From positions 434,001 to 498,000 of the forward strand of contig KB906737.1 in the NCBI GenBank assembly GCA_000381585.1: 64,000 nt of DNA. Reading direction: 5' to 3'. This document shows, piece after piece, positions 26,015 to 40,628 of the stretch (position 1 is its first letter; every line of letters starts with the position of its first letter). A program made the translations under genes and the position numbers. This DNA is from Acidobacteriaceae bacterium KBS 83 (GTDB lineage: Bacteria; Acidobacteriota; Terriglobia; Terriglobales; Acidobacteriaceae). Under the pieces are notes generated by a model. The model saw nothing but the letters and a program-made list of their open reading frames with translations, did not search any database and had not been told where the DNA came from.

Positions 26015-26249
26015 CTCCTGCTCCCGCCTCGCGACTCCATTAGGTCAGCGTACAACGTCGCCGGAGCAGCGGGACGAGCGAGAGAGTTCGAAGCGGGCAG
26101 GTGAAGAGCTCACGGAGTGGAGTTTCATATCGAGTTTTTCCCTGTGTCTGACTGTCCAAATCCGTAGCTGGCGCCGAACGCGACCAGAGCCTGCATCGAC
26201 GAAACCACGCCGGTACCAGCTGGCCACATATCAATGAGAAAAGGTTCCG

Positions 26250-26297
26250 GAACTGTCTGAAGTGACAGTTCTCAGGCCATTAGTGGCTGGCTAAGAT
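26250..26297 (+). promoter_or_regulatory. Shared palindrome-promoter module, copy 1
   Basis: GAACTGTC-N6-GACAGTTC (26250-26271) is followed by TTCTCA (-35-like), 17 bases and TAAGAT (-10-like, 26292-26297), then AGGAG and ATG 26318. The block is almost the same as at 37436-37507, including TCTGAAGTGACAGTTCTCAG and the SD-ATG-AAC end. It now drives a dead DUF4136 gene. The palindrome is probably an operator for a dimeric activator. Confidence 0.65.
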
Positions 26298-26317
26298 CCG
26301 ACAGGTAGGAGACTGAA

Positions 26318-26500
26318 ATGAACAGGAGAGTAGGCAACAAAGTCGTTTTACAGGGCCCGCTTTTGATATTTCTGATGATCACCGCGAGGATGCTAGCCGC
26401 GTAGGACATGCGTTACAACTTCATGCCCGGAACAGATTTTTCGAAATATCACACTTGAAAAAGGGGCCACCATTGAAACTATCCACCCAAACAGAAATGG
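26318..26500 (+). pseudogene. DUF4136 exported protein, pseudogene
   Basis: ATG 26318 opens a signal peptide (VLQGPLLIFLMITARMLAA) that meets TAG at 26402-26404, where family members have a Gln codon (CAG). In the same frame the sequence goes on as DMRYNFMPGTDFSKYHT, the hallmark start of the DUF4136 domain, then meets TGA. The neighbouring frame continues as EKGATIETIHPNRN, resembling the following KWATIE..HPNQ part of the family. So the gene carries one nonsense change, one frameshift and a 3' loss. The promoter and ribosome-binding site upstream look intact. Confidence 0.6.
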
Positions 26501-26537
26501 AACGTTCGCCCCCTCAAGAGCCTGGGAAGGATCTGGT

Positions 26538-27266
26538 ATGAGAAACAAATCAGTTCGTGGTTTCAAGATGTCTCTGATTCTATGTGGGCTGGCGATTGGC
26601 GCGGCACTGCCGTATCCGATTGCCGCACAAAGCCCGGACCTGCAACAGAAAGTTGCTGAGATCAAGGAATCGGCCGCCAAGAACAAGCAGGCCCTTGCGC
26701 AATACACCTGGGTCGAGCAAGACACGATCAGCCTGAAGGGCGAGCAGAAGAAGCAGGAGCACTTCCAGGTCCGCCTCGGTCCCGATGGTAAGCCGCAAAA
26801 GACACCACTTGACGCCGCGCCAGCCGCAGAAAGTGGAGAGAAAGAAGGGCGCCTGAAGAAGCACGTCATCGAGAAGAAGACGGAAGAGTATAAAGAGTAC
26901 GCCGAACAGATAAAGGCGCTGATCCAGCAATATGTCCCAATAGATAAAGATGCGATCGAACAGGCACGCCAAAAGGGCAACATCAGCCTGGGGACGCAAG
27001 CTAACACGCCGGGAGAATACCGGTTGGTGATATCCAATTACATCAAACAGGGCGACAATTTGACGCTGGTGTTTGATAAGGCACAGAAAGCCCTCGCGAG
27101 CTTATCGATTGCTACCTACCTGAGCGATCCAAAGGACGCAGTCAATGTAACGGTGCAGTTTAGTTCCATGCCCGGTGGACCGCACCATGTATCAGGTGAA
27201 ACCATTAATGGGGTCAGCAAACAGCTGACAATCGCCGTTCAGAATAGCAATTATCAAAAGATTTAG
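26538..27266 (+). CDS. Exported protein of unknown function
   Basis: 242 residues with a signal peptide (MSLILCGLAIGAALPYPIAAQ after a short basic start). Mature residues 35-60 are helical (LQQKVAEIKESAAKNKQALA). QYTWVEQDTISLKGEQKKQEHFQV looks like a beta hairpin. Residues about 110-160 are a charged helix, and TATYLSDPKDAVNVTVQFSSMPGG-like strands close the protein. Similar proteins (QYTWVEQ..SLKGE start) occur widely in acidobacteria without a known role. It follows the decayed DUF4136 gene and may use its promoter module. The terminator at 27473 lies about 200 bases downstream. Confidence 0.7.
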   Translation: MRNKSVRGFKMSLILCGLAIGAALPYPIAAQSPDLQQKVAEIKESAAKNKQALAQYTWVEQDTISLKGEQKKQEHFQVRLGPDGKPQKTPLDAAPAAESGEKEGRLKKHVIEKKTEEYKEYAEQIKALIQQYVPIDKDAIEQARQKGNISLGTQANTPGEYRLVISNYIKQGDNLTLVFDKAQKALASLSIATYLSDPKDAVNVTVQFSSMPGGPHHVSGETINGVSKQLTIAVQNSNYQKI

Positions 27267-27472
27267 ATGGTTGGCGTTCACTGAATAGATGCAAATGCGG
27301 CCGGCCGTTGTCCGCATGTCTCGACCAACTGAAATCGCCCGAAAGGGTTGCATCGCGTAAGGGTCATGCTCCTGACTATGGACCTTAACCCTGACGTCGC
27401 GAGCGATGCTTTCGGATAGTGAATTCTCTAGGTGGGACCGGCGAAGATGCTGTGCGGATCTAGCTTCAACTC

Positions 27473-27513
27473 AAAGCCGACTGGCGGACGGACGTCTACC
27501 GGTCGGCTTTTTT
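27473..27513 (+). terminator. Intrinsic terminator
   Basis: Twelve-base stem AAAGCCGACTGG with CCGGTCGGCTTT (one G-U-type mismatch) around a 14-base loop, followed by six T on the plus strand. On the minus strand it lies directly after the mannosidase stop codon but has only three T, so it is stronger for plus-strand transcripts. Confidence 0.7.
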
Positions 27514-27518
27514 GCGTT

Positions 27519-30500
27519 TTACTGTCCGGGTTCGGCTGTGCGATCGAGAGTGTCGTAGAGCGGCCGGATGGGGTGCGTTTGCTCTCCGGCCGCAGCCGCG
27601 GTGATAGCGAGGATGCGAATGCGATCGTTGCTTGGCAGGGTGATGGTCTTCGCTCCTGCAGGAACATCGATGGTGTAAGCGTAAAGGTAAGAGTAATTGT
27701 AGATAGCGTTGCTGCCATCGGTGGAGTGGAGGTGGGATGCATACCACGCCACGGGCGCCCTCTTGATGAAGCCGGGCGTGAGTCCCACGTAGCTTGGCTT
27801 CATGATTGGGCCGTGCGCCTTCGTGAAGGCGAGCGTTCGGCGTGCGCGTTGAGCTTCCTTGCTGTTATCGCCAGCCGCAGGAGTGGCAGGAGGAGGAACG
27901 GGGATTGTCTTCCACTGGCGGTCGTCCCACTGGCCGATGTAGCCGGACCAGTCCTGGATGGTGAGTGGAACCGGCGTGCTCCCGATTTGGAAGGTGGCCT
28001 GTTGATCCCCACCATACGATGCTGCGAGCAGGTAGAGGCGGCTGTAGTTGCCTTCAGGCAGATTGATGGTCTGCCCGTTGGCGGTGACTGCGTTTGGCTT
28101 GCCTTCGGTTGCGGACGCGAGGTGGAATGCGATGCCGTCGTAGGCAATTTCAGAGGGGAGCATTTCGCCGGGCAAGGATTTCCCTTCCGGATCGAAGCCC
28201 CCGGTGGACGGCCTGTTCTCGGCTGTGGCGACCGATGCGTCATAATTCAGCTGGACTGGCTGCGATTGCGGAGGTGTCACCTTCGCATTCGCGTCAGAGA
28301 GCTTTATTGCAAAGGTGCGTGGCTGATAGCCGGTGAAGTCGGTGACGAGTTCCCCCTTGATAACAGTCACGGCACCCAACTCTTCTTCCGCTCCGTTGAT
28401 CTCGCGTGCGCTTGCGATAGCCACCGGGAAGCTGACTCGAACGGCAGTCTGCGGCTTGCCTGTCTCCTCAACCATGCGGACAACGATTTCATCGCTCTGC
28501 TCGGCTCGCTTTACCGCCATGACGCGAACTTGCGAGTTGTTCACGATGAGCAGCGAGAAGGTCTTGCCGAGCGCGCCATCGTGTTTCTGGCTTTCGAATG
28601 CGATGAGGGGTTGATTGAGGCGAATTCCCTGCCAGTTGGTGTTCTCTTTACGCCAGTCGCCAGCGTGACTAGCGATGCCGTAGTTGAATTCGTGATGACC
28701 CCAATCCTGCGTAGCCTGATCGCTATAGGCAATGCCTGCAGGACTGATACCGGGAGTGCGAAGCAGTGTGAGACGCAGGGTGCTGTCGTCGGGCTTGTCA
28801 GAGCCGTGTTTGTAGTCGGATAGCACGGTGATACCAAATGCTCCGTTCTTGTCAGTCAGGTCGATCCATTGATGGGAGGCGACTTCGAACTTGCGTTCGT
28901 CATTATTGCCGCGTTCGATCTTGCCTATGTCCCAGTTATAGGTGGCCTGCGGATTGGAGGCGGTGAGAGGGAAGGTTGCCTTCAGATTCGATTCTGAGAT
29001 CTTCCAGTCGACAACGTTGGCGAATTCGACGCGATTGCCGGCATCGCCCGCGGAGAGACGGATGGCCTGAACGAACTTCGATCCTTCCCTTTCGCGGGTG
29101 ACTTCAAGTGCGACGCGGGCCGGGCCGTTTTCGAGGATTTTGATTGTCGCCGGGCCGGAAACGAAGGCACGCGGCGGCTTCTGCTGGTCGGTCCAATCCA
29201 TATTCCATGCGGGCCATTCCTGCGGCTTATCGGTCTTGAGGGCGAGGCGCGCGGGAGCTGAAAGTAATTCCCGTTTGATCGATTTGTCGTAGATGCTGGA
29301 GACGTCGCCATTTTCGTCAATCTTGACGCGGTAGCGTGCATTCTCAAGCGAGGACTCGGTCACCTTCAGCGGGCTCGCGACAGGAGCGGCGGCTGCCGGC
29401 TGGACGTCGTAGACCGCGAAACCGACCGAGGGCACCTTCGCGAGGAAGACAATCCTGGCTGTATTGGTTGTGGAAGACGAGATTTGCGCGGGCACCTCTT
29501 TGCCGTCGGGACCAACGACGCGCACCGCTTTGGGCGTTCCGCTGGGGAAGGTGATGTTGCCTTCGACTATGTCTTCGCGCGCAATGGAAAGCTGGTTGTA
29601 GACGACGACGGGTGTGCCACCGGTTTTGGTATTGAGAGCGGAGCCGACAGCATCGGCGGCACTCTGCAGGACTCCGCCAAACTGGTTCATGGCAACGGAC
29701 TGATCGTTCCATGCGTATTCGTAAGCCTTCGGCGTGGCTGTGCCGGGGATGAGGTCATGGAATTGGCCGCCCATCACCAGCGTCCAAGCGTTGGTGAGCC
29801 GATCCTTCGGATAGGAGCGACCGCCCAGCCAGGCAGCGGCGACTGACGCGCGCTCGGCTGCATCGGCGAGGGTTTCATTCTCGCGATTCCAGCGCTTCAT
29901 ATAGGCTTCGGAGGTCAGAGAGCCGGCAGAGTGCTCGGTGAGCTCGAGGTCGCCGGTGTAATGCGGCATGTGGACGACGTCTTCCGGCTTGATGTCGAGG
30001 AACATCTGTTCGGAATTTGTCTGGACCACATGAAGGGGCCCATCTCCGACTTTGACGGGCTCGCTCTTCGCCGTGGCATTGCGCTCGGAGGGCAGCGCGG
30101 TGGTTCCCTGGGTCACGATCGCTTCCATCAACTTGATGGAGTTCTCGCGCGGTGCGCCACCGATGTCGCCGGTTCCGTAGTAACGATAGTCGACGTAGAG
30201 TCCACTGGATTTGCCGTTGTTCTCAGCGCGGCGGATCCATTCATCGCTCTTGGTGAGATCGTCTTTGACGTTACCGTTGTAGTCAGTCGCATTAAGAGCG
30301 GCGATGATGCTCTTGCCATCGGGCCCCTGCCACGCACCTACATTGAAGGGAATGCCCTTGGGCGTGTCCTGCGGAGAACCGGGGCCGCCCGCGGTGGTGG
30401 CGGAATGCCAGGTGAGTTTCTGCGTGGAGAATCCCTTGATGCCCATGTGCGAGAGGATGGTGGGCAGAGATGCGGGAAATCCAAAGCAATCGGGGAGCAT

Positions 30501-31316
30501 GTATTCGGCGCTGGTGCGTCCGAAATCGTGACGGAAATACTCCTTGCCATAGAGGATCTGACGAATGATCGACTCTGAGGATGGGTTGTTGACGTCACCT
30601 TCTTCCATGGACGAGCCGGCGACGAACCAGCGGCCAGCGGCGACATATTTCTTCAGGGTTTCATAGTCGGCTGGGTAGTACTCCTTCATGAAGCGGTAGC
30701 GGTTGGCTCCGCTGAAGTTAAAGACATAGTGCGGATATTTTTCGAAGAGGGCGAAGTTATCGCGCATGGTGCGGGGGAGATATTCGCCGATGGTGTTGGG
30801 GTACTCCCAGCGCCACTCGGTATCGAGGTGGGCGTAAGGCACAACGTAGAGAGTGGCGTTCTTGCCGGGATCGAGCGTGGCAGGAGACTGATCGGGTTTG
30901 GCTGCGGCATCTGCCGGCGGCGGGGACGGAGGTGCGAGTTTCTCCTCGGGATCGCCGGGGTGGTGTAGTTTGGCGGTAAAGCCACCCTCCATTTCATAGG
31001 GATCGACGAAGATCTGGCCCTTCATCTCGGAAGCGGAGCTGACGGTTCCCTGAAAGGAAATAATCAGCATGGTGCCACCTTCGTCGACTCCGGACTGCCA
31101 CATGGCCTGATCGCCGTTAACCGTTCCGGTAACATCGACCAACTGATTGTCATCGAGCTTGCAGGAACCCGTGAGCAGGTCGGCTTGCTGCTTCAGGTTG
31201 CAGATCGCGGAGACGGGATTTCCGCCAACGGTGCCGTTGACTCGCCAAACTCCGCTGATGTCCGCTGCCGCCGCGGGAATTGCGGCAAGAATAAAAGCCA
31301 GACTTAGTAATCTCAT
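27519..31316 (-). CDS. GH38 alpha-mannosidase, exported, with N-terminal extra domain
   Basis: 1265 residues from ATG 31316, which has an AGAGGGAAGA site upstream and starts the signal peptide (LLSLAFILAAIPAAAA). Residues about 20-110 form a small beta-rich domain (SGVWRVNGTVGGNPVSAIC..), then a Pro-rich linker. The GH38 catalytic domain follows, with metal-ligand HLDTEW (His163, Asp165) and the nucleophile Asp276 in LPDCFGFPASL. The large beta-sandwich domains of family 38 complete the rest. The enzyme hydrolyses terminal alpha-mannosides, probably in the periplasm. With the six-hairpin glycosidase nearby it points to scavenging of mannose-rich glycans. Confidence 0.9.
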   Translation of the reverse strand: MRLLSLAFILAAIPAAAADISGVWRVNGTVGGNPVSAICNLKQQADLLTGSCKLDDNQLVDVTGTVNGDQAMWQSGVDEGGTMLIISFQGTVSSASEMKGQIFVDPYEMEGGFTAKLHHPGDPEEKLAPPSPPPADAAAKPDQSPATLDPGKNATLYVVPYAHLDTEWRWEYPNTIGEYLPRTMRDNFALFEKYPHYVFNFSGANRYRFMKEYYPADYETLKKYVAAGRWFVAGSSMEEGDVNNPSSESIIRQILYGKEYFRHDFGRTSAEYMLPDCFGFPASLPTILSHMGIKGFSTQKLTWHSATTAGGPGSPQDTPKGIPFNVGAWQGPDGKSIIAALNATDYNGNVKDDLTKSDEWIRRAENNGKSSGLYVDYRYYGTGDIGGAPRENSIKLMEAIVTQGTTALPSERNATAKSEPVKVGDGPLHVVQTNSEQMFLDIKPEDVVHMPHYTGDLELTEHSAGSLTSEAYMKRWNRENETLADAAERASVAAAWLGGRSYPKDRLTNAWTLVMGGQFHDLIPGTATPKAYEYAWNDQSVAMNQFGGVLQSAADAVGSALNTKTGGTPVVVYNQLSIAREDIVEGNITFPSGTPKAVRVVGPDGKEVPAQISSSTTNTARIVFLAKVPSVGFAVYDVQPAAAAPVASPLKVTESSLENARYRVKIDENGDVSSIYDKSIKRELLSAPARLALKTDKPQEWPAWNMDWTDQQKPPRAFVSGPATIKILENGPARVALEVTREREGSKFVQAIRLSAGDAGNRVEFANVVDWKISESNLKATFPLTASNPQATYNWDIGKIERGNNDERKFEVASHQWIDLTDKNGAFGITVLSDYKHGSDKPDDSTLRLTLLRTPGISPAGIAYSDQATQDWGHHEFNYGIASHAGDWRKENTNWQGIRLNQPLIAFESQKHDGALGKTFSLLIVNNSQVRVMAVKRAEQSDEIVVRMVEETGKPQTAVRVSFPVAIASAREINGAEEELGAVTVIKGELVTDFTGYQPRTFAIKLSDANAKVTPPQSQPVQLNYDASVATAENRPSTGGFDPEGKSLPGEMLPSEIAYDGIAFHLASATEGKPNAVTANGQTINLPEGNYSRLYLLAASYGGDQQATFQIGSTPVPLTIQDWSGYIGQWDDRQWKTIPVPPPATPAAGDNSKEAQRARRTLAFTKAHGPIMKPSYVGLTPGFIKRAPVAWYASHLHSTDGSNAIYNYSYLYAYTIDVPAGAKTITLPSNDRIRILAITAAAAGEQTHPIRPLYDTLDRTAEPGQ

Positions 31317-31791
31317 TCTTCCCTCTTTGTCGTTCAAGTGCTTCGTACGGGGCAACGCGTTGGTTGAAAGCTATTGTCTGAAATATGAACAAGGCAATCC
31401 GCTGGGCGACCTCACGGCACTCGTCGACTGTGTCGATTGCCGTGATGATGATACGGCACGAATCAGGCGTAGGGATGCTAGTCCGGATGAACCGGCGGGT
31501 TGTGTCATTTTTGGCGTCTGACGCGTTCTCGGGCTGGTTCTCTCGTTTTGGCGGGAATACTAGCGTATTTCCAGGAGAGTTCAACAGGAAGGCAACTGAG
31601 CAAAGTATCTAATTACCATTCCTCTACGAGAAGACAACGGGAGCGAGACGGCTGGGGAAGATCACTTCGACCACGATCTGCTGATCGTCTCGTGATCGAA
31701 GCTGCGTACCTTCATTCTGCGGTTCAATGACGCCGAATCGTTGCGAGCATTGAAGTCCTGGCTGCAAAACTCACTCTTGGCGCAGTCGCAA
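31317..31791. other. Gene-free stretch between GH38 and DUF2950 genes
   Basis: It contains the 5' region of the mannosidase gene. I find no intact gene. A minus-strand frame ending at 31624 reads FGVIEPQNEGTQLRSRDDQQ and more, which looks coding-like, but it has no start codon and is only about 45 residues. A small hairpin ACGATC-TGCT-GATCGT lies at 31673-31688. Nothing else is supported. Confidence 0.4.
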
Positions 31792-32733
31792 TCATTCCTC
31801 GACAGGTTTCCACCCTGCGTCAGGATTGAACTGTGTCATTGCGATTGCTGTCTCTTGCGTGGATTTCCCCAGATCCTTCTGGAGGAGCACGCCATCCTGG
31901 TTGATCATGAAGGTCATCACTCCTGAGTTGCCGTATTCGGCAGGATAGGCGACGAGTGCGAATCCATCAATCATTTTGCCGTCGTGAACATAGTCCTTCG
32001 CACCCCCGGGCGCGCTACTGCCCTGCCCTTTCAACATGTGAAAGAAATAGCCATGAAAGGCTGCATGCGCGTCGGGCTTGGCGCTGTAGCCCTCCGCTGT
32101 TGCAAACGCGACCAATGGTCCGAGCGGACTCTGGGGCTGACCTTGAGGTGAGGCCCAGTACAAGCCGTTCTGCTTGCCGGGATCGCTGAGGAACTTCTGC
32201 GCGTACTGCTTCGTGGTCGCGCCATCATGAAGCTGAGAGAAATATTCGGCCTGAGCATCCGCCGCGGCCTCGCAAACCTCGATCATGGCGAGTTCGTTTC
32301 GGCCAATCCGACGATTGAGAACCTCGTCTCTGCCTGACGCCGTGTCGAAGAACCATTGGCCGGCGGCATTTTTCTTCAGAGGAATGGGAAACGGGAAATT
32401 GTCAGCGCCCACCAAAAGGATCTGCGCACCGTCGCCCAGGTTGCGCCAGCGATGCATCACGTCATACCGTTTCACAAACGCGTCGCCGGCATTTTTGTCC
32501 TGTACGGCATCGCCAGATGAAATGAGCTCCTTCGAGCTTGGGCCGAAGATTGCAACCAGTTGTGCCTGGTCGCCCGATCTTGCCGCTGCGAGTAGGGCAT
32601 TCGCTGCGTCATCGGGTGTAGAAAACAATCTGGTCGCAGGTTCTTCTGATTTATGGCAGGCAGCAAGCGGAATCAATATCGCCAGGAGGAAGAGCCGGGC
32701 CGCGAGGGCAACTCTGAATGGCTTAGGAGACAT
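31792..32733 (-). CDS. DUF2950 lipoprotein-like protein
   Basis: 313 residues. The signal sequence ends in LIPLAAC, a lipobox, so it is likely lipid-anchored. The mature sequence has the DUF2950 features: SSKELISSGDAVQDKNAGDAF, GQWFFDTASGRDEVLNRRIGRNELAMI, YWASPQGQPQSPLGPLVAFA, GYFFHMLKGQGSSAPGGAKDY and YGNSGVMTFMINQDGVLLQKDLG. DUF2950 is commonly encoded next to DUF3300, as here, where the DUF3300 gene lies 73 bases upstream on the same strand. The pair is probably one operon. Molecular function is unknown; an envelope-assembly or stress role is conjecture. Confidence 0.9.
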   Translation of the reverse strand: MSPKPFRVALAARLFLLAILIPLAACHKSEEPATRLFSTPDDAANALLAAARSGDQAQLVAIFGPSSKELISSGDAVQDKNAGDAFVKRYDVMHRWRNLGDGAQILLVGADNFPFPIPLKKNAAGQWFFDTASGRDEVLNRRIGRNELAMIEVCEAAADAQAEYFSQLHDGATTKQYAQKFLSDPGKQNGLYWASPQGQPQSPLGPLVAFATAEGYSAKPDAHAAFHGYFFHMLKGQGSSAPGGAKDYVHDGKMIDGFALVAYPAEYGNSGVMTFMINQDGVLLQKDLGKSTQETAIAMTQFNPDAGWKPVEE

Positions 32734-32806
32734 TTGATCCTCCGCAAGATTCGGATTTCAGATTCAAGAGTTTTAACAACACCAGCAATACTTTCCCGAT
32801 GTCACT

Positions 32807-34345
32807 CTATCGGCGACCATGCCAGCCACCACCGCCGCCACGGCTGAAGGAACCACGGGCACTCGCCTGCCGGGATTGCCATCCGCCCCCGCCGCCGCCT
32901 CCACCAAAAGCCGAGGCATGGGCGCTGCTCTGCTGTTGTCCGTATCCTCTGGAGGAAGTGCCCTGGCTCTGTTGCCAGCCACTTCCAGTGTTCTTGTAGA
33001 CATTCCCGTTGGAGGCGGCATATTTGTTGCCGTTTGCCGATTGTCCCGTAGCGTACCTGTTGCCGTTCGCAGATTGTCCTGCGGAAAAGGTGTTACCGTT
33101 TGCGCCCGCACCAGCAACAGCCTTGCCCCCTGAGGAAGTCTGAATCGACGATGCGGTTCCTTGTGCAGTGGTCTGGTGCTGGGTATACGCAGTCTGGCCG
33201 TTCTTTGAGACGACGGAGCTTCCGTAGTTCCCATAGGCATTGGCGCCTTGCGCCGTAGCGGCATAGGTCCCGGTCCTCGCGTTGTAAGCCTGGCCTGCTG
33301 CTGCGGCTCCGTTGGGGCCCGTCCCAGACACGCCACGCGCAACTGTGCCAGTGCTGGGATTGTAGCCTTGAGCGGCACTTCGCGTGCCGTAAGGAGTCGC
33401 AACAGTTCCGCCTCTCGCATAGGCACCCGTTGTTGGGTTATACGCAGTGCCAGCGCGAGCTGCGCCATATGGACCGTACGCCGTGACACTGGACCCATAG
33501 ACCCCACCGTGCCACGCATTGTTTCCGTAATAGACGTTGCGGTTGTACACCACTGTGCCGCCATGCCAGTTGCAGCCCCAGTAGCTGTAGCCCCAACCAC
33601 AACAACTGTTATTTATCGCTGCTCCTACAGCGATGCCGACGCCGAAGGCCAGCAGACCGGTTGCCACTACATCTGCAGTGCTATAACCCGGAGTTTGGAC
33701 CGGCACGCCATAGACTACCGTGGGATTGTATTCCGGAATGTAGACGACTTGCGGATTCGTAGGCTGAATCACGATGGTTTGCGGCGACTGCTGAACGACG
33801 GTAATCTGCGACCCAGATTTGAGATTGCCAGCAGCTTTCGCCTCGGCACGCATGGCCTGGATCGCTGACATGATATCGCTGGTCTGGGTGTGATACGCCT
33901 CGCCCAATGCGGAAGTCCAGCTCAGATTTTTCGTCATGTTGTCGAGAACCGAAGGAAACTGCGTGAGGGCCTTCACGCTGGGGTCCCATGGCTGCTTATC
34001 CACCGCCTGCATCAGGTTATCCCCGGTTAGATTCTTATTTTGCTGAAGCCAACTGTCGGCACCAGCGACCTGATCCGGAAAAGTCGCAGCTCCGAGAACC
34101 TGAGCCACCAGCGCGTCGGGGTATAAGGCGATGGGCGCTACCAGTTGTTGCAGTTGATCCGCAGGAAGCGGCGCACCTTGACCTGAGTATCCCGCGGGGG
34201 CACCCTGTCCCGGTGACGTTTGTGCGGCCGGGGCCGATTGTCTGGCAGGCGCTTGCTGACCTTCAGCGTCAAATGGCGCCGTGGCAAAAACCAGCAGCAG
34301 CGACAACGTATTCGAGAAAAGCTGTTTCGCGATGGTCCTGATCAT
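32807..34345 (-). CDS. DUF3300 exported protein with Gly/Ser-rich tail
   Basis: 512 residues from ATG 34345 (AAGAGGA upstream). A signal peptide is followed by the DUF3300 domain: LPADQLQQLVAPIALYPDALVAQVLGAATFPDQV, then KQPWDPSVKALTQFPSVLDNM and VVYIPEYNPTVVYG. The last 250 residues are low-complexity, rich in Gly, Ser, Thr, Tyr, Asn and Gln with repeated GNxYATGQSANGN units, ending in a run of Gly and Arg. Such tails are typical of surface-exposed or aggregating proteins. It probably leads the DUF2950 operon and is divergent from a beta-barrel gene, with a palindrome between them. Confidence 0.9.
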   Translation of the reverse strand: MIRTIAKQLFSNTLSLLLVFATAPFDAEGQQAPARQSAPAAQTSPGQGAPAGYSGQGAPLPADQLQQLVAPIALYPDALVAQVLGAATFPDQVAGADSWLQQNKNLTGDNLMQAVDKQPWDPSVKALTQFPSVLDNMTKNLSWTSALGEAYHTQTSDIMSAIQAMRAEAKAAGNLKSGSQITVVQQSPQTIVIQPTNPQVVYIPEYNPTVVYGVPVQTPGYSTADVVATGLLAFGVGIAVGAAINNSCCGWGYSYWGCNWHGGTVVYNRNVYYGNNAWHGGVYGSSVTAYGPYGAARAGTAYNPTTGAYARGGTVATPYGTRSAAQGYNPSTGTVARGVSGTGPNGAAAAGQAYNARTGTYAATAQGANAYGNYGSSVVSKNGQTAYTQHQTTAQGTASSIQTSSGGKAVAGAGANGNTFSAGQSANGNRYATGQSANGNKYAASNGNVYKNTGSGWQQSQGTSSRGYGQQQSSAHASAFGGGGGGGGWQSRQASARGSFSRGGGGGWHGRR

Positions 34346-34717
34346 TCCTCTTGCCTCCACAGCTATTCGCAAGGCGCCTGCAAGGAGTCAGATCGTCGCG
34401 AATTATAGTTATTCCGGAATCTGTTGAGCCCGTAGCTTGCCACGCCTCTCTTCTCGCTTCAGCTGCCGGGTCCAGATCCACTACGACCTCGTAAATCGTG
34501 CCGGCGAACTATCGCGCATTCGCCGAATTCCACTGCTCAAGGGCGCTGGGCACGGCAAGCAGATAACGACAATAAGCATGAAGTTGCTGCCTACAAGCTG
34601 CAACTGTCACATCTGCCAGTCGAAGAGCACTTCGTCCCTTCTGTCATTTGTGACAGTTCCAAATCGATCTTCTATCGCATTAGAAAAGTAGCTGCGCCCG
34701 TGCGTTTGAGGAGTCCT
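34346..34717. promoter_or_regulatory. Divergent control region with palindrome, module copy 3
   Basis: CTGTCA-TTTG-TGACAG lies at 34641-34656 and continues as TTCC, echoing the right half (GTGACAGTTC) of the two other copies. TAGAAA follows 22 bases later at 34681, in the same place as TAAGAT in those copies. An additional AACTGTCA half-site lies near 34605. The region separates the DUF3300 gene from the outer-membrane protein gene, so either or both may be controlled from it. No other gene is seen. Confidence 0.5.
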
Positions 34718-35551
34718 ATGAAACTTCCGCGATCTTCGTTTTTACTTTTGCTGACACTCGTTGCGCTCGGACGGTTTGGAATGCCTGTGGCGATTGCGCA
34801 GCAGCCTACTTCGAGCGCGAGCACATCGCCCCCGCCGAGTAGCGCTCCAGAGGCGGACACCAGTGGCGCCATGGACGACAAATGGCACATCGGGTTTGCC
34901 CCTTACCTCTGGTTCCCCGGGATGCATGGCACATCCGGGATTCGCGGGTTTGATACCAGCGTGCGTGCCTCAGCTGGGGACTTGCTCTCGCACTTCAACA
35001 TCGGGCTCATGGGGACAACGGAAGTGCGCAAGAACCATTTCGTGTTGGCCACCGACCTCATGTGGGTTCGGCTCAGTGACGACAAGGCACTGCCAGTAAA
35101 CGAAGTTGGCATCAACTCCATCAGCTTCAGAGCCGGTCAGTTCCTGCTTACACCGATGGGGGGATACCGGGTCGTCGATAAAGAGAAGCTAAAAGTGGAT
35201 GGGCTGGCGGGTTTGCGCTACTGGCACCTAGGACAAAAGATCGAGTTTAGTCCCACCATCCTGAACGGGGTATCCGCGTCGCAGAACTGGGTGGATGCTC
35301 TTGGGGGCGCGCGATTCCTGTTGCTTCTGACCCCCAAAGTGTCGGCGAGTGTCATCGGCGATGCGGGAGGTGGGGGCGCAAATTCCGATTATGAAATAGC
35401 GGGTTTGCTGGGACTGAAGGTCAAGAAGAATATCGACTTGAAGGCGGGCTGGCGTTATCTAGTCGTTGATTATAGAAATAGCAGCAATCAATATCTTTAT
35501 AACGTAGCGTCAAGCGGGTTCATTCTTGGAGCACTCTTTAATTTCAAGTGA
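34718..35551 (+). CDS. Outer-membrane beta-barrel protein
   Basis: 277 residues from ATG 34718 (GAGGAG upstream). A signal peptide precedes a Ser/Pro-rich spacer. The rest alternates strand-like segments (WHIGFAPYLWFPGMHGT, HFNIGLMGTTEVRKNHFVLATDLMWVRLSD, PMGGYRVVDKEKLKVDGLAGLRYWHLG) and ends in Phe, GFILGALFNFK, as outer-membrane barrels commonly do. The WxxGFAPYLWxPGM start is typical of an acidobacterial/proteobacterial barrel family of unknown cargo. It is expressed from the region with module copy 3. Confidence 0.8.
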   Translation: MKLPRSSFLLLLTLVALGRFGMPVAIAQQPTSSASTSPPPSSAPEADTSGAMDDKWHIGFAPYLWFPGMHGTSGIRGFDTSVRASAGDLLSHFNIGLMGTTEVRKNHFVLATDLMWVRLSDDKALPVNEVGINSISFRAGQFLLTPMGGYRVVDKEKLKVDGLAGLRYWHLGQKIEFSPTILNGVSASQNWVDALGGARFLLLLTPKVSASVIGDAGGGGANSDYEIAGLLGLKVKKNIDLKAGWRYLVVDYRNSSNQYLYNVASSGFILGALFNFK

Positions 35552-35723
35552 GGGGTTCTTGAACATTTTCGCCATCATCGTCAACTTCGGCCGTTTACCT
35601 AATTGATCCGGGCCGCACGAACGCACTTCTAGATCGAACGCTTACACTGAACTCCGGAATCGCGGTCTACATTGATCCTCCGCACACCCGAGCTGAATCG
35701 AGTTACTCGGAAGGACCAAGGAC

Positions 35724-36695
35724 CTACTTTTGCATTGCCTTCAGCTTTGCCTTCACCTCCGGAGGCAACTTCGGAAACAGGAATGCAACTTGTAAGCGCA
35801 TGCTCCAAGGTGAGCCGTCCACGGTATGCGCAGCATTTCCGTAAAACTGCGCGGTGACATTTACCGGTTGCAGACCCAATCTGAATATTCGTCCCACACC
35901 GCCCCCGACTGGCACGGTCCATACATTTCCGCTGGAAGCCTTCCAGTTCGCGGTAACGATCGGCGAATATGACAGAAACCAGCCCTTCTTCAGGTTGTAG
36001 TTAATGAAATATTGCAACGTCATCTGGTTCACGTCATTGCGGTCCGAAGGGCCGGCGACCGACCACGCATTATTCACAAGCGCGCCAATGGTCCAATGGC
36101 CGGGCTGAATCAGCGCAACGACGGAGGGCCCGATGCTGAGTTTCCCCTGACCCAGTACCTTGCTGGTGGCCGTTGGCAGAACAAATACTGGCCCGGCTCC
36201 CCAGATCAGCTTGTGCGGCGCGGCGGGCGAAAAGAAAAACGTTGGAGTCATATCCGCAAAGCCGAATACGCCGGCACTGCGCTGTACTGCCTGCGCCGCA
36301 AAGTAGGCGGGAGTATCTTCCACAATGCCATACACCTCCAGGTTCGCGGTACCTGGAGCAGGTTGCCAGAGGATCGGGGCAATCCAGCGAATGATCATGT
36401 TCCAGTCTTTGCTGACCTTCATCGGAATCACGGGCTGGATATTCAGCACATTCTGTACCCGGTCATACGGACCGATGCCGAAATTGCTGTTGTTCTGAAG
36501 CGGAACACTGATCAGGCTCGCGACCGGGTTCTGCGTGGCCTTCTGCAAATCTGCCGCTCCGCTGCCGGCGGGCTCAGGCGCGTTCGGAACAGGATCCTGT
36601 TGTGCTGACGAAGACATCGGGGTGTAAAGAGACGCCCAAAACACAAGTGCAATTTTCAGTGATCGCGTCAATTCCTTCCTCCTGCGACTAAGCAT
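35724..36695 (-). CDS. Outer-membrane transporter-like barrel protein
   Basis: 323 residues with an N-terminal signal (SLKIALVFWASLYTPMSSSA). Repeated features are NPVASLISVPLQNNSNFGIG, NVLNIQPVIPMKVSKDWNMI and a set of aromatic-girdled strands (WTIGALVNNAWSVAG, MTLQYFINYNLKKGWFLSYS). The NPVASLISVPLQNN start is the hallmark of a conserved family often mislabelled 'neuromedin U' or simply 'transporter'. Substrate is unknown. It ends with a charged helix (PPEVKAKLKAMQ), not the usual Phe. The gene is convergent with the preceding barrel gene and lies 172 bases from it. Confidence 0.8.
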   Translation of the reverse strand: MLSRRRKELTRSLKIALVFWASLYTPMSSSAQQDPVPNAPEPAGSGAADLQKATQNPVASLISVPLQNNSNFGIGPYDRVQNVLNIQPVIPMKVSKDWNMIIRWIAPILWQPAPGTANLEVYGIVEDTPAYFAAQAVQRSAGVFGFADMTPTFFFSPAAPHKLIWGAGPVFVLPTATSKVLGQGKLSIGPSVVALIQPGHWTIGALVNNAWSVAGPSDRNDVNQMTLQYFINYNLKKGWFLSYSPIVTANWKASSGNVWTVPVGGGVGRIFRLGLQPVNVTAQFYGNAAHTVDGSPWSMRLQVAFLFPKLPPEVKAKLKAMQK

Positions 36696-36797
36696 TACGG
36701 CATGAGTTTAGGATCGGGCTTCGACTGCTTGAGAACGGTTTTACTGGATGTGCAGTTGACGTACAGGGCGGACGAGTTTTCTGATGTTTCGTCTGTC

Positions 36798-37316
36798 TTA
36801 CTGATCGGTTTGTTCAGCGCGACGATGAAAGAATAGTTGCGCCAACTTCTCTTCGCCAACTATTCTTTGCAGCTCCCCGTATGCGACGAACGGAATGAGC
36901 ACCACAAACAGAAGTATGGTGAGAGTAAGAATTCCTTTCCCGGTCCCCCCGGCAAGATCAGCAATACTCTCGTGAAAGGACCTATGGTGAAAGTATCCTA
37001 TGGCGAATTCTTCCAAGATCTTGAAACAAGCCAGCACAACAGCAAATAGCGCGGACTTCAGAAGCGTCGAATAGATGAGTGGCGCCTCCTCGACGCGTTT
37101 GCCGAGGTGGAGGCCCTGTGCAATGAGCATCACTTTCGCGAGTGCCAGCGCATTGATAAGGGCTAAACCGTGGTAAGTAACGTCGATGTTGTATGCCCCA
37201 AGAACAATCGACTTGTACGCAATGAAACAACTGAAGACCACCAAGAGATAGAGCGTGATAATGACAAATTCTCTTAGCTCCCGATAGGCCTTTTGCTTCA
37301 GGCTTTGTTTCGACAT
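36798..37316 (-). CDS. Four-helix membrane protein of unknown function
   Basis: 172 residues from ATG 37316, with GGAGGTAGT immediately upstream; the longer frame to 37403 has no such site. Four hydrophobic helices are evident (about 16-38, 47-65, 78-102, 131-152). The N-terminal KQSLKQKAYRELREF is amphipathic and basic, and the C-terminus FFHRRAEQTDQ is cytoplasmic-like. AYGELQRIVGEEKLAQLF follows the last helix. I do not recognise the family. It shares an intergenic region with the palindrome module copy 2, so it may belong to the same regulon. Confidence 0.7.
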   Translation of the reverse strand: MSKQSLKQKAYRELREFVIITLYLLVVFSCFIAYKSIVLGAYNIDVTYHGLALINALALAKVMLIAQGLHLGKRVEEAPLIYSTLLKSALFAVVLACFKILEEFAIGYFHHRSFHESIADLAGGTGKGILTLTILLFVVLIPFVAYGELQRIVGEEKLAQLFFHRRAEQTDQ

Positions 37317-37435
37317 ACTACCTCCTCTGCGCGGCACAAGAACCGGCGTCAACGAAGCGGGACCAGTCGTAAGCGCGCCGGCTGTAGAAGATCCTGAGGG
37401 CACCCACCATCACAACATTCCGAAAAGGGCATCCG

Positions 37436-37484
37436 GAACTGTCTGAAGTGACAGTTCTCAGTCTGTCACTGGGCTGGTTAAGAT
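37436..37484 (+). promoter_or_regulatory. Shared palindrome-promoter module, copy 2
   Basis: GAACTGTC-N6-GACAGTTC at 37436-37457, TTCTCA, 18 bases, TAAGAT at 37479-37484, GGAGG and ATG-AAC at 37505. The spacing from TAAGAT to ATG (20 bases) equals that in copy 1. It sits between the divergent four-helix membrane protein gene and the carbonic-anhydrase-tail gene. Confidence 0.65.
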
Positions 37485-37504
37485 CCAGCAGACAGGAGGT
37501 CGAA

Positions 37505-37654
37505 ATGAACGAAAGAAGCGCAATCAATGCGAGTATTCACGCTGAATTGCTGCGCACGTGCTCAACCGTCATTCGCGATGCCGTCAAGGGTGGCGCTCTG
37601 AAAATAGGGGCCGGAGTTTATGATCTCGCAACTGGCACAGTTCCATTGAGCTGA
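37505..37654 (+). CDS. Mini-protein resembling the C-terminus of beta-carbonic anhydrase
   Basis: 49 residues from ATG 37505 with GGAGG five to six bases upstream. LLRTCSTVIRDAVKGGALKI and GAGVYDLATGTVPLS match the last helix and final strand of beta-class carbonic anhydrases, where the usual wording is SPVLRE.VE.G.LKIVGA.YDL.TG.V. The zinc-binding Cys-His-Cys part is absent, so it cannot be an enzyme. It is either the remains of a truncated gene captured by a mobile promoter, or a regulatory peptide. The intact control signals argue that it is still translated. Confidence 0.55.
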   Translation: MNERSAINASIHAELLRTCSTVIRDAVKGGALKIGAGVYDLATGTVPLS

Positions 37655-37714
37655 ACGACCAGCCAGAATAAGCGAATAGCGGGTGTGCGCCTTGCCCAAC
37701 GGTACGTGTGCTTC

Positions 37715-38452
37715 ATGCCACTGACACGACAACATTGGTGTCTGGCCCTCCTACTTACGATGCTCTGCTTTTGTCTTCCGGCCGTTCGTGCCAGAGCGCA
37801 ACAACAGCAGGCGCCCGAAGACCCAGAAGATGAAAAGCAGGTAGGCCTATGGCTCGACCAGGGGATCTCTGCCGGGCTTTCACGCAACAGGTCCCTGGAA
37901 GCCGAATTCCATCAACGCTTCGACGAGGGAGCCTCAAATCTCTTCGAGTATTTCTTTCAGGGCGGCGTTGCCTTTCGCCCGCGACCGTGGCTCATCGTGC
38001 TGCCGTCGTATCGCTATCAGCGCTTTCCCGGCAATCCCACAGTTGACTACGAAAACCGGCTGCTACTCAACCTGACGCTGAACGCATCCCGCGGTCCATG
38101 GCAGCCTAATTTCCGCACTCTCATCGAGGGACGTTTTCCCGATGGTCTTACTGCTTCGGCACGCCTCCGGTTTCGTCCGGGAGTGATCTATACCTTGCCG
38201 CTGCCTATGGCGCGGCGTCCCGCGCTGGTTGTGAGCAATGAATTCTTCGTCGTTCCAGGAACCAATAGCTTTGCAGCAGGGGGCAGTTTTACCCAGAACC
38301 GATTTCAGGTGGGAATTAGGTTGCCCATCACGGATTCGTTTTCCACTCGGCCCTACTTCATGCTGCAGTCAGTGAATTTGCCTCCCGGCTGGGATACCAA
38401 TGAAATCATAGGCATCTCCGTCGCATTCAGAATTCTACGCAAGAGCAAGTAG
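37715..38452 (+). CDS. DUF2490 outer-membrane protein
   Basis: 245 residues from ATG 37715; the in-frame GTG at 37685 is possible. A signal peptide (HWCLALLLTMLCFCLPAVRARA) is followed by barrel-like strands: VGLWLDQGISAGLSRNRSLEAEFHQRFDEGASNLFEYFFQ, FRPRPWLIVLPSYRYQRFP, YENRLLLNLTLN. These are the typical RxExRFRD-like DUF2490 strands. It ends in FRILRKSK. The cargo is unknown. It lies 60 bases downstream of the carbonic-anhydrase-tail gene on the same strand and may be its operon partner. Confidence 0.8.
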   Translation: MPLTRQHWCLALLLTMLCFCLPAVRARAQQQQAPEDPEDEKQVGLWLDQGISAGLSRNRSLEAEFHQRFDEGASNLFEYFFQGGVAFRPRPWLIVLPSYRYQRFPGNPTVDYENRLLLNLTLNASRGPWQPNFRTLIEGRFPDGLTASARLRFRPGVIYTLPLPMARRPALVVSNEFFVVPGTNSFAAGGSFTQNRFQVGIRLPITDSFSTRPYFMLQSVNLPPGWDTNEIIGISVAFRILRKSK

Positions 38453-38907: not shown

Positions 38908-39327
38908 ATGCCCCCGAAGCGCTCCAACACGTTGACAGAAGCGGAACTCCGGATCATGCGCATCCTCTGGGAGCGCGGCGAATCATTGGTGAGCGAGCTG
39001 GTGGCCGCCATGCCAGAGAGCACGCCCCTCGCCTACACCTCGGTGCTGACGACGGTACGGATACTGGAGCAGAAAGGGTACGTCCGCCATCGTCAGGAAG
39101 GGCGTGCCTTTGTCTATCGTCCGTGTATTGCGGAAAATGACGCGAGCCGTTCAGAGATTCGACATATGCTGGATCGCTTCTTCGGGAACTCGCCGGAGCG
39201 TCTACTTCTAGCGCTGCTCGGCGATGAGGACGTGTCACACGAGGAATTGCAGCGCCTCAAGGCTGCCATCGCTCAGGCCGAATCTGCGGCGACGGAAGAG
39301 AACGCGATACCGAAGGGGCGCAAGTGA
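38908..39327 (+). CDS. BlaI/MecI/CopY-family repressor
   Basis: 139 residues with the family's winged-helix N-terminus: LTEAELRIMRILWERGESLVSELV, then TSVLTTVRILEQKGYVRHRQEGRAFVYRP, and a C-terminal dimerisation helix (LLLALLGDEDVSHEELQRL). These repressors bind promoter dyads and are cleaved after signalling by a BlaR1-type membrane protease. The next gene, overlapping by four bases, encodes exactly such a protease, so the pair forms a sensor system. The ligand cannot be told from sequence; beta-lactam or envelope stress are family-based guesses. Confidence 0.92.
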   Translation: MPPKRSNTLTEAELRIMRILWERGESLVSELVAAMPESTPLAYTSVLTTVRILEQKGYVRHRQEGRAFVYRPCIAENDASRSEIRHMLDRFFGNSPERLLLALLGDEDVSHEELQRLKAAIAQAESAATEENAIPKGRK

Positions 39328-40628
39328 ATTTCCCTTCCGAACTCTTCCGCATGGGCGCTTACGTATTCTTTGCCGGACTCTGGCAGGGCGCGGTCCTGGT
39401 CACGGCCGTAGCTCTCGCTCTCCGCCTTTGTTCCCGCGTTGGTCCCCGGCTTCGATTCGCCATCTGGGCAGTCGCATTCATCGTGCTCCTCGCCACGCCG
39501 CTACTGAACCTTCGGACGCATTCTTCTCCGTCGGGTCCGCTTGTGGCTAGCCTGCGGGTGAGCGAGACGTGGGGATATGTGATCGTCGCGTTGTGGCTGA
39601 TCCTGATGTCTGTCCGAGCTGTACAACTCACCGTGCACCTGTATCAATTGCGGGGCACCTGGAAACGTGCCACACCGATCCGTGCTGACGAGAACACTTC
39701 GGAGCTATTACAGCGCAGCCCCCGATCCGTGGAGCTATGCACCTCCGCGGATGTGGATTCTCCGAGCGTCATCGGCTTCGGATCTCCTCGTCTGCTTATT
39801 CCTGAATGGCTGGTTGGAAAGCTGTCGCCCGAAGATATGGCTCAGATAGTGCTCCATGAATTGGAGCACCTCCGCCGCAGGGATGACTGGCTCAACCTCA
39901 TCCAGAAGGTGGGTCTTGTGCTCTTTCCGCTAAATCCAGGCCTCCTTTGGGTAGACCGTAAGCTATCCGTCGAGCGCGAGCTCGCATGCGATGCCGGTGT
40001 TGTCGCCTCGACAGCCCAACCACTTGAATACGCACGCTGCCTTACGAGACTAGCCGAGCAACGCTCGCAGTACCGCAAACTGGCTTTATCGCTTGCAGCA
40101 TGGAGTCGCCAATCCGAAGTTGGACGACGCATCCTGAGTCTGCTTCAACCCGTCAGCGCCTGGTCATCCCGTCCCGCGAGATTCGCAAGCGCTCTGCTTG
40201 TTCTGGTCATCACGGGCAGCGCCGTGGAGATGGCTCGCGTGCCACATTTCGTGACCTTTGCCGATCCGCATACCGTACCTGAGTCTCACGCGTCCGCTGC
40301 TGTTGCAGATTCGCAATCTGCCGTCCCTGTCGTCTACTCCGAAACCGTACAACCGCGAGCGACGTTTCTGAAGGCCGTGATGGATCCTGCCCCGCACGTG
40401 GAGCCTGCTCGAGAGGCGCTTCCGCGGCAGCCCTTGCGCAAAGCTCATGCCGTGAAGCTACGGCAGCAGCACCCCCGCATGCTGCCCGCTGCAGCGCGCA
40501 CCTCAGCACGGGAAACGAATCTAAACAGCGGAAGGCTTTTCCAAGCCGTTTATGTGCTGCCTGACGAATTCTCGCCATCGTATACAGCCGTCGCATTCGC
40601 GAATGGCTGGCTAATCGTACAACTTTAA
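39324..40628 (+). CDS. BlaR1-like M56 membrane metalloprotease
   Basis: 434 residues starting at GTG 39324, the stop codon of the BlaI gene overlapping (GTGA). Helices lie at about 10-30, 38-56 and 77-95. The zinc site HELEH (His178, Glu179, His182) is followed by a further helix and the acidic ligand stretch SVERELACDAGV. Residues about 315-434 are an extracytoplasmic tail without a recognisable penicillin-binding sensor domain, so the inducer is likely not a beta-lactam. It should cleave the BlaI-type repressor encoded upstream. The Do protease gene 27 bases downstream is probably part of the same operon. Confidence 0.9.
   Translation: MNFPSELFRMGAYVFFAGLWQGAVLVTAVALALRLCSRVGPRLRFAIWAVAFIVLLATPLLNLRTHSSPSGPLVASLRVSETWGYVIVALWLILMSVRAVQLTVHLYQLRGTWKRATPIRADENTSELLQRSPRSVELCTSADVDSPSVIGFGSPRLLIPEWLVGKLSPEDMAQIVLHELEHLRRRDDWLNLIQKVGLVLFPLNPGLLWVDRKLSVERELACDAGVVASTAQPLEYARCLTRLAEQRSQYRKLALSLAAWSRQSEVGRRILSLLQPVSAWSSRPARFASALLVLVITGSAVEMARVPHFVTFADPHTVPESHASAAVADSQSAVPVVYSETVQPRATFLKAVMDPAPHVEPAREALPRQPLRKAHAVKLRQQHPRMLPAAARTSARETNLNSGRLFQAVYVLPDEFSPSYTAVAFANGWLIVQL

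Follow-up and report, generated by a model that had tools for sequence, protein, structure and literature searches.

Palindromic promoter elements in an acidobacterial genome as probable operators of a NarL/FixJ-type response regulator family

Palindromes and genes in the window

A 64,000-nucleotide stretch of the genome of Acidobacteriaceae bacterium KBS 83 (contig KB906737.1, positions 434,001 to 498,000 of the forward strand, hereafter the window) carries palindromes in front of several genes, which an earlier note had taken for either an envelope regulon under a single dimeric activator or a promoter that spreads by copying. The palindromes were followed through the 6.25-Mb genome holding the window (G000), through 120 genomes of the family and through 80 loci fetched with the sequences of one group of regulators. 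On sequence grounds, they are probably operators of a family of NarL/FixJ-type response regulators with the recognition helix RTVA(F/Y)HKY, which would activate sigma-70-type promoters from them. What the computations show is a motif with a regular placement and a favoured distance to the -10 element, which is linked to this family of regulators and to its helix.

When up to three mismatches are allowed, GAACTGTC-N6-GACAGTTC has three matches in the window (at 26250, 34638 and 37436) against 0.21 expected, and none of 100 shuffles reached three. The copies at 26250 and 37436 are both exact, as had been claimed, and form identical 22-bp palindromes, the 6-base spacer TGAAGT included. The third match (34638-34659) has three mismatches, and the CTGTCA-N4-TGACAG described at 34641 is present. 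A fourth site, ACTGTCACATCTGCCAGT at 34603-34620, had been overlooked; it lies 37 bp before the site at 34640. The matching distance from the exact copies to TAAGAT also stands, as the two offsets agree to 1 bp, and both copies are followed by the AGGAG/GGAGG site and ATGAAC that were described for them. TAGAAA is indeed found behind the 34640 site, but it is without the final T of a good -10 element. The promoter features are as follows.

26238..26323, + strand: first copy of the duplicated promoter cassette, comprising operator, -10 element, ribosome site and ATGAAC; 81% identity over 89 bp to copy 2
26250..26271, + strand: predicted operator palindrome GAACTGTCTGAAGTGACAGTTC (core 26252-26269; motif match)
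26292..26297, + strand: -10 element TAAGAT, beginning at offset 31 as counted from the centre of the palindrome
34603..34620, + strand: additional predicted operator ACTGTCACATCTGCCAGT (core matched exactly)
34640..34657, + strand: predicted operator TCTGTCATTTGTGACAGT (motif match)
34681..34686, + strand: weak -10 candidate TAGAAA, offset 32
37422..37510, + strand: duplicated promoter cassette, copy 2; 81% identity over 89 bp to copy 1
37436..37457, + strand: second, identical copy of the predicted operator palindrome (core 37438-37455)
37479..37484, + strand: -10 element TAAGAT, offset 32 from the centre

The genes around these sites are listed below.

26318..26404, + strand: frame of 28 codons with the beginning of a decayed DUF4136 gene, as judged by eye against intact DUF4136 proteins
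26538..27266, + strand: frame of 242 amino acids downstream on the same strand, no Pfam match; possible surviving target, judging from its position
32807..34372, - strand: DUF3300 gene (PF11737, E=1.3e-62), divergent from the 34603 and 34640 sites
34718..35551, + strand: predicted exported protein (ATG at 34718 after GAGGAG; the listed frame starts at 34700 with GTG)
36798..37403, - strand: frame divergent from the 37436 operator, no Pfam match; a membrane protein as read in the earlier note
37505..37654, + strand: mini-frame of 49 amino acids resembling the C-terminus of a carbonic anhydrase (weak likeness)
37685..38452, + strand: DUF2490 gene downstream on the same strand (PF10677, E=5.9e-26); possible surviving target, judging from its position

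The gene behind the first copy had been called a dead DUF4136 gene, and the comparison by eye bears this out: beyond the stop of the 26318-26404 frame, the sequence continues in frame in a DUF4136-like way with DMRYNFMPGTDFSKYHT up to another stop; an intact protein of the genome has EVKSNAMPGVDFSKYHT. A search with PF13590 did not detect this remnant. The carbonic anhydrase tail described behind the second copy is a weak case, since its sole other match in the genome covers 41 residues at 39% identity with an E-value of 0.27; the partner is the final part of a frame with, by eye, the look of a beta-carbonic anhydrase. Judging from their position, the next genes on the same strand (26538 and 37685) may be the present targets of the two copies. 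The exported protein at 34718..35551 has no Pfam match, its reading as an outer-membrane barrel being that of the earlier note, and no TANNNT is found at offset 31 or 32 on the DUF3300 side of the 34603 and 34640 sites. The DUF3300 gene is adjacent to a DUF2950 gene (31792-34372). Further along, a penicillinase-repressor (BlaI-like) gene overlaps a frame of 434 amino acids, perhaps a BlaR-type peptidase (38908-40628). The BlaI-like gene at 38908 was dropped as a candidate local regulator because the motif tracks another gene family.

Promoter duplication

The two exact copies belong to an 89-bp duplication of 81% identity that runs from the operator through to the start codon (ATGAAC), and no third copy of this cassette was found in the genome. 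In our reading, the identical palindromes come from the duplication of a whole cassette, the first genes having since decayed. A second pair of promoters, G000:C2:590379-590578 before a sulfatase gene and C3:287546-287743 before an aquaporin gene, is 83% identical over 200 bp. In 3596 comparisons of the flanks of sites within the genome, only these two pairs stand out, with 39/31 (one pair) and 28 (the other) identical positions out of 50, the next value being 25 and the mean 16.4 (standard deviation 2.2). Both duplications speak for a promoter that spreads by copying, as had been proposed, and if this were the main process, the palindrome would reflect copying or mobility of the module instead of regulation. 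Each duplicated promoter was found in two copies, however. Sites in other phyla (see below) have the core in common, and in many cases the distance to the -10 element as well, and this conservation refutes copying as the main explanation. We consider it quite improbable in that role; the idea of spread by copying survives as a part of the explanation.

The core motif in the genome

With up to three mismatches, the genome has 31 sites of the 22-mer and 13 of its reversed pattern. Exact copies of the 22-mer number just two, both in the window. This would count against a regulon, but the 22-mer string is longer than the shared motif, and a shorter core is found genome-wide. This core, ACTGKCA-N4-TGMCAGT, was shortened from the genome matches to the 22-mer, with the reversed pattern as control, and has 26 sites with at most one mismatch (6 in the control). 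The sites are clustered, 18 of the 26 having another within 12 kb, while 2000 random draws gave a mean of 2.6 and a maximum of 11.

Pfam searches with chosen neighbours of the sites in this genome returned four sulfatases, DUF4136, DUF3300, OmpA, DUF2252, patatin, a sortase and an aquaporin, as well as a PEP mutase, a transglycosylase, an NADH-dehydrogenase-like protein and others; several had no match. The genome has three intact DUF4136 genes, two of which have sites upstream, and the third has no site (at most two mismatches) in its 3.4-kb locus. Of 56 proteins encoded beside sites in this genome and in three relatives, five matched DUF3300, four OmpA, and three each sulfatase, DUF4136 and sortase. 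The 74 neighbours in the 80 named loci include receiver domains (13), HATPase (9), OmpA (6) and HisKA_3 (6), and are skewed to signalling genes because these loci were fetched by a regulator. The envelope regulon that had been suggested finds support in the genome-wide copies, their intergenic placement, the -10 distance and the envelope-type neighbours, but cytoplasmic and signalling proteins are also among the neighbours.

Placement and promoter geometry

Sites lie between genes in 127 of 149 cases, where 81% of the sequence is coding according to the same gene caller (binomial p 5e-68). The caller is a simple longest-frame script which missed some regulator genes, and the set of 149 sites retains duplicates from overlapping loci; the set used for the -10 offsets was deduplicated. 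In the latter (130 oriented sites), TANNNT begins at offset 31 from the centre in 23 of 76 one-sided sites and at offset 32 in 5, with a mean of 0.5 elsewhere. Outside this genome, the corresponding numbers are 22 and 3 of 65, and the two window copies, which have genes on both sides, also have TANNNT at 31 or 32. Over 103 sites, the half-site is ACTGTCA. Five bases from the centre, G comes next in frequency after T, and the positions beside the dyad are A/T, the core positions being partly fixed by the selection of sites.

If the -10 element spans -12 to -7, the centre of the motif is at -43.5, and the operator abuts the -35 region. This position suggests an activator, possibly of class II type, whose sites centre near -42, although a dimer of the same regulator family over the -35 region could also block the polymerase, and an operator which abuts or overlaps that region does not by itself decide between the two. 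The preferred distance of 31 bp (23 of 76, and 13 of 52 flanks for the variant motif described below) suits activation from beside the polymerase, while a repressor would presumably tolerate more positions, and we therefore regard repression as unlikely. Two other classes of system were considered and set aside. A CRP/FNR-type activator would fit the position near -42, but the half-site looks unlike the CRP/FNR patterns. For sigma-54 enhancer sites, no -24/-12 element was seen by eye after the window sites.

Linkage to a response regulator family

Two clusters of sites in this genome surround signalling genes. The cluster at C1:69805-79840 has in its midst two LuxR-type response regulators together with a HisKA_3 kinase and a lone receiver, and the one at C6:203308-210903 has one LuxR-type response regulator, again with a kinase and a lone receiver. 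Six of the genome's 26 sites are within 10 kb of the three family regulator genes, where 0.21 would be expected (p 5e-8). The C-terminal LuxR-type helix-turn-helix (HTH) domain (PF00196) is found in L031:7256-7894 (E=8.6e-15), L046:13913-14575 (4.7e-16) and L031:15869-16597 (3.2e-13). The receiver domain (PF00072) is found in the first two (E=2.5e-21 and 1.5e-25) and is weaker in the last, with an E-value of 6.8e-05 that is below the curated cut-off. The column of the phospho-acceptor D54 is near-invariant in 11 aligned regulators. The C1 regulator L031:15869-16597 (aligned as L031:15977-16597) has a gap at this column and may therefore act independently of phosphorylation. The third paralogue (G000:C6:205918-206541, or L046:13913-14575), which lies among CTGTCA sites, has a different helix, VSEKTVMFHKYHIM.

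Four kinases encoded near the regulators in three genomes (L031:13300-15084, L046:14556-17360, L098:16457-18706 and L091:4770-7820) combine ABC_sub_bind, HisKA_3 and HATPase domains. Receiver and kinase genes also stand among the sites of G070, G105 and G118, as read from their frames, and Pfam confirms the kinase domains in G070 and G118.

The motif is patchy among the 120 family genomes, even between congeners. For the survey, a regulator relative was defined by E<1e-50 and motif enrichment by at least 7 sites with an excess of 5. Regulator relatives occur in 18 genomes, which have a mean of 12.3 sites (control 2.8), while the other 102 have 1.84 (control 2.07; Mann-Whitney p 5e-6), and enrichment is seen in 12 of the former and 2 of the latter (p 1.4e-10).

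The named loci, the best 80 among the matches listed, were fetched by an alignment of 11 regulators, blind to the motif. In their approximately 1.18 Mb there are 96 core sites (94 without double-counted overlap), spread over 40 of the 80 loci, and none of the reversed control. Sites are found in 26 of 34 acidobacterial loci, 5 of 26 from Nitrospirota, 5 of 10 from Gammaproteobacteria and 4 of 10 others; the regulator family itself is found on contigs with assignments to Acidobacteriota, Nitrospirota, Pseudomonadota and Planctomycetota. If runs of N are left aside, CTGTCA-N4-TGACAG is the top inverted repeat of these loci, with 47 occurrences in 25 loci against 0.10 expected. Moreover, 27 sites were counted in 305 kb around family regulators, compared to none in 391 kb around other LuxR-type regulators (20 loci, 10 of them from motif-carrying genomes; the helix was readable in 10 of the 20 and was never RTVA).

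Helix type and motif variant

The 80 loci were sorted by the residue that follows TV in the recognition helix, and an unbiased search of them for inverted repeats raised a second palindrome, ACTAGG-N6-CCTAGT. The 50 loci of A or G type have 81 CTGTCA and no ACTAGG sites, while the 25 of E type have 0 and 24, respectively (Fisher 3e-24). The reversed controls for the two motifs gave 0 and 5 in the A/G-type loci and 0 and 1 in the E-type ones. Five loci with an unreadable helix have 15 CTGTCA and 2 ACTAGG sites, and neither motif was found in the three E/Y-type loci inspected out of four (L192, L196 and L199). Phylum alone is not sufficient to account for the split, because L154, L156 and L161, titled Nitrospira, are of A type with CTGTCA, and L194 (Woeseiaceae) is of E type with ACTAGG. 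For the variant, whose 26 sites give 52 oriented flanks when read in both directions, TANNNT is found at offset 31 in 13 flanks, with a mean of 0.57 elsewhere.

The variant palindrome lies beside E-type relatives, mostly in contigs titled Nitrospira, with the -10 element at the same offset of 31. Its loci are L158, L165, L172, L173, L177, L178, L184, L188, L194, L198, L200-L203, L206 (helix unread) and L211.

The half-site CTGTCA also raises the question of whether the sites belong to PhoB, or to another regulator in the same clusters. According to the accessible text of PMC3333781, the PhoB boxes of E. coli are direct repeats of CTGTCAT and thus share this half-site, and Crp-like proteins account for 2 of the 74 neighbours in the named loci. 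In the 80 loci, however, no direct repeats of CTGTCA with an 11-bp period were found, compared to 47 inverted ones. The PhoB model also has matches in all 120 genomes, none of them above its cut-off, and matches so ubiquitous cannot account for a patchy motif; PhoB was rejected on both counts. Nor would a second regulator account for a motif that changes along with the helix of the response regulator, and we find such an assignment quite improbable.

It is possible, and we propose it tentatively, that a switch within the helix underlies the split: Ala...Tyr (RTVAFHKY) would read ACTGTCA and Glu...Ser/Thr (KTVEFHKS/T) would read ACTAGG, both types keeping the ACT at the outer end, a dyad of 18 bp and the 31 bp to the -10 element. 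The A-type would have either converged on or retained the DNA word of a quorum-sensing lux box, and the regulon would be portable between congeners, clustered at its own kinase and regulator genes, and would recruit envelope genes partly by cassette duplication.

Assessment and proposed mechanism

Several observations weigh against assigning the palindromes to this regulator family as activating operators. In this genome, TANNNT stands at offset 31 or 32 behind just 3 of the 11 one-sided sites. Six of the 18 regulator-bearing genomes (G031, G018, G109, G074, G038 and G063) are without a clear excess of the motif, and two of the 102 others (G102 and G106) are enriched all the same. The helix is not readable in G018, G038, G063, G074 and G031, which leaves these exceptions unexplained, and G109 has RTVAYHKY despite showing no clear excess; an unbiased palindrome search in the loci of G018, G038, G063, G074 and G031/G095 gave no convincing alternative motif. 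Within the stretches fetched, 15 of the 50 A/G-type loci are without CTGTCA and 10 of the 25 E-type loci without ACTAGG. As for the sampling, the cut-offs for relatives (E<1e-50) and for enrichment were chosen after the numbers had been seen, L137 and L144 count two sites twice, L089 and L090 overlap, some named loci (L223 and L169, for example) stem from assemblies that also count among the family genomes, and most of the non-acidobacterial loci are metagenome-assembled genomes, which may be misbinned. Given the likeness to the lux box, LuxR proteins of the acyl-homoserine lactone (AHL) type are also possible binders elsewhere. Finally, the excess of the core in this genome is weaker with up to two mismatches (99 vs 67 in the control). 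This modest figure indicates that the signal resides in close matches; together with the mere two occurrences of the 22-mer, it is also what could be said for palindromes arising by chance, an explanation which the one-mismatch counts, the placement and the linkage already refute and whose probability we take to be negligible.

We retain the assignment to the response regulator family, for which the following mechanism can be proposed. The regulator would receive its phosphate from a histidine kinase that combines HisKA_3 and HATPase domains with an ABC-substrate-binding-like sensor, and a dimer of the regulator would bind CTGTCAN-NN-NTGACAG in a 7-2-7 layout whose centre is usually A/T. Centred near -43.5, the dimer would abut the -35 region and activate a sigma-70-type promoter with the -10 element starting 31 bp on. 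The single dimeric activator that had been supposed is in this way given a candidate by gene neighbourhood, phylogenetic profile and the helix/motif split, but the genome has three paralogues, and binding and activation are predictions. The most likely interpretation overall is that envelope and stress genes of soil bacteria are under the control of a so far uncharacterised response regulator of a two-component system, and that its relatives in other phyla use the same or an altered code.

On this reading, the family can be tied to a DNA site and to a set of candidate genes, and DUF3300, DUF4136 and the secreted sulfatases, to which no function is assigned, become accessible to study as one response. 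The split between helices and motifs is a natural experiment on the choice of DNA by LuxR-type HTH regulators, as the half-site differs across it in three base pairs and the helix in a few residues, with the geometry kept. None of the papers listed in searches for this regulon or motif, judged by their titles and abstract openings, concerned this regulator, most subscription journals being outside the reach of these searches. As far as sequence can tell, the regulon appears to be new and its kind known.

Comparison with known systems

The closest known DNA word is the afe-box of Acidithiobacillus ferrooxidans, GCTGTCAA-NN-TTGACAGC, the target of AfeR upstream of afeI, which in the accessible text of PMC3759942 overlaps the -35 region of a sigma-70 promoter; lux boxes generally overlap -35, as the available portion of PMC1766932 has it. 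The afe-box is near-identical to the core palindrome, has the same position and is read by a LuxR-type HTH, and to the extent of that description (PMC3759942), the likeness supports such an HTH as binder and the activating position, and the DNA word itself is not new. The regulator linked to the sites here is, in contrast to AfeR, a receiver-domain response regulator with a kinase. That the sites could instead be lux boxes of an AHL quorum-sensing receptor of the LuxR/AfeR type is suggested by this same likeness and position, but the AHL-binding domain (PF03472) has no match in this genome. It has matches in 24 of the 120 family genomes, all of them weak, with 34 bits at best, and for the most part in frames of at least 670 amino acids, and in 2 of the 14 motif-enriched genomes (G026 and G106). 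The AHL synthase (PF00765) was found in none of the 120, yet control genomes gave no match either. Such a receptor would also leave the helix/motif split unexplained; it was rejected as the binder here on the PF03472 results and is, in our view, very improbable. Since the A-type word is that of the lux box, the question of cross-talk arises where both kinds of regulator coexist.

Among solved structures, the best-scoring relatives of the regulators over their full length are those of VraR (PDB IDs: 5HEV, 4GVP and 7VE6; E 8e-37 with a profile), which are relatives in sequence only and whose recognition helix, IKTVKTHVSNIL, differs. The NCBIfam models of MctR and MctS are the second-best for the regulator L031:15869-16597 (91.4 bits) and the best for the neighbouring kinase (171.6 bits), respectively; membership in MctR (NF052445)/MctS was rejected, as these scores are far below the curated cut-offs of 300 and 700 bits. 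DevR/DosR of Mycobacterium (PDB ID: 3C3W), which has a palindromic operator and a stress regulon, belongs to the same regulator superfamily (E 2.9e-26). Its kinases have haem GAF sensors, while the kinases here carry an ABC-substrate-binding-like sensor.

The positions aligned with Lys188 and Lys192 of NarL, which contact the DNA, are Ala and Tyr in the A-type regulators, and Glu and mostly Ser/Thr in the variant. NarL of E. coli (PDB ID: 1A04) has the receiver and LuxR-type HTH also seen here and binds, by the accessible text of PMC4549865, inverted heptamers 2 bp apart. CTGTCAN-NN-NTGACAG shares this 7-2-7 layout, but the NarL operator given there, TACCCCT-AA-AGGGGTA, is unlike the motif described here.

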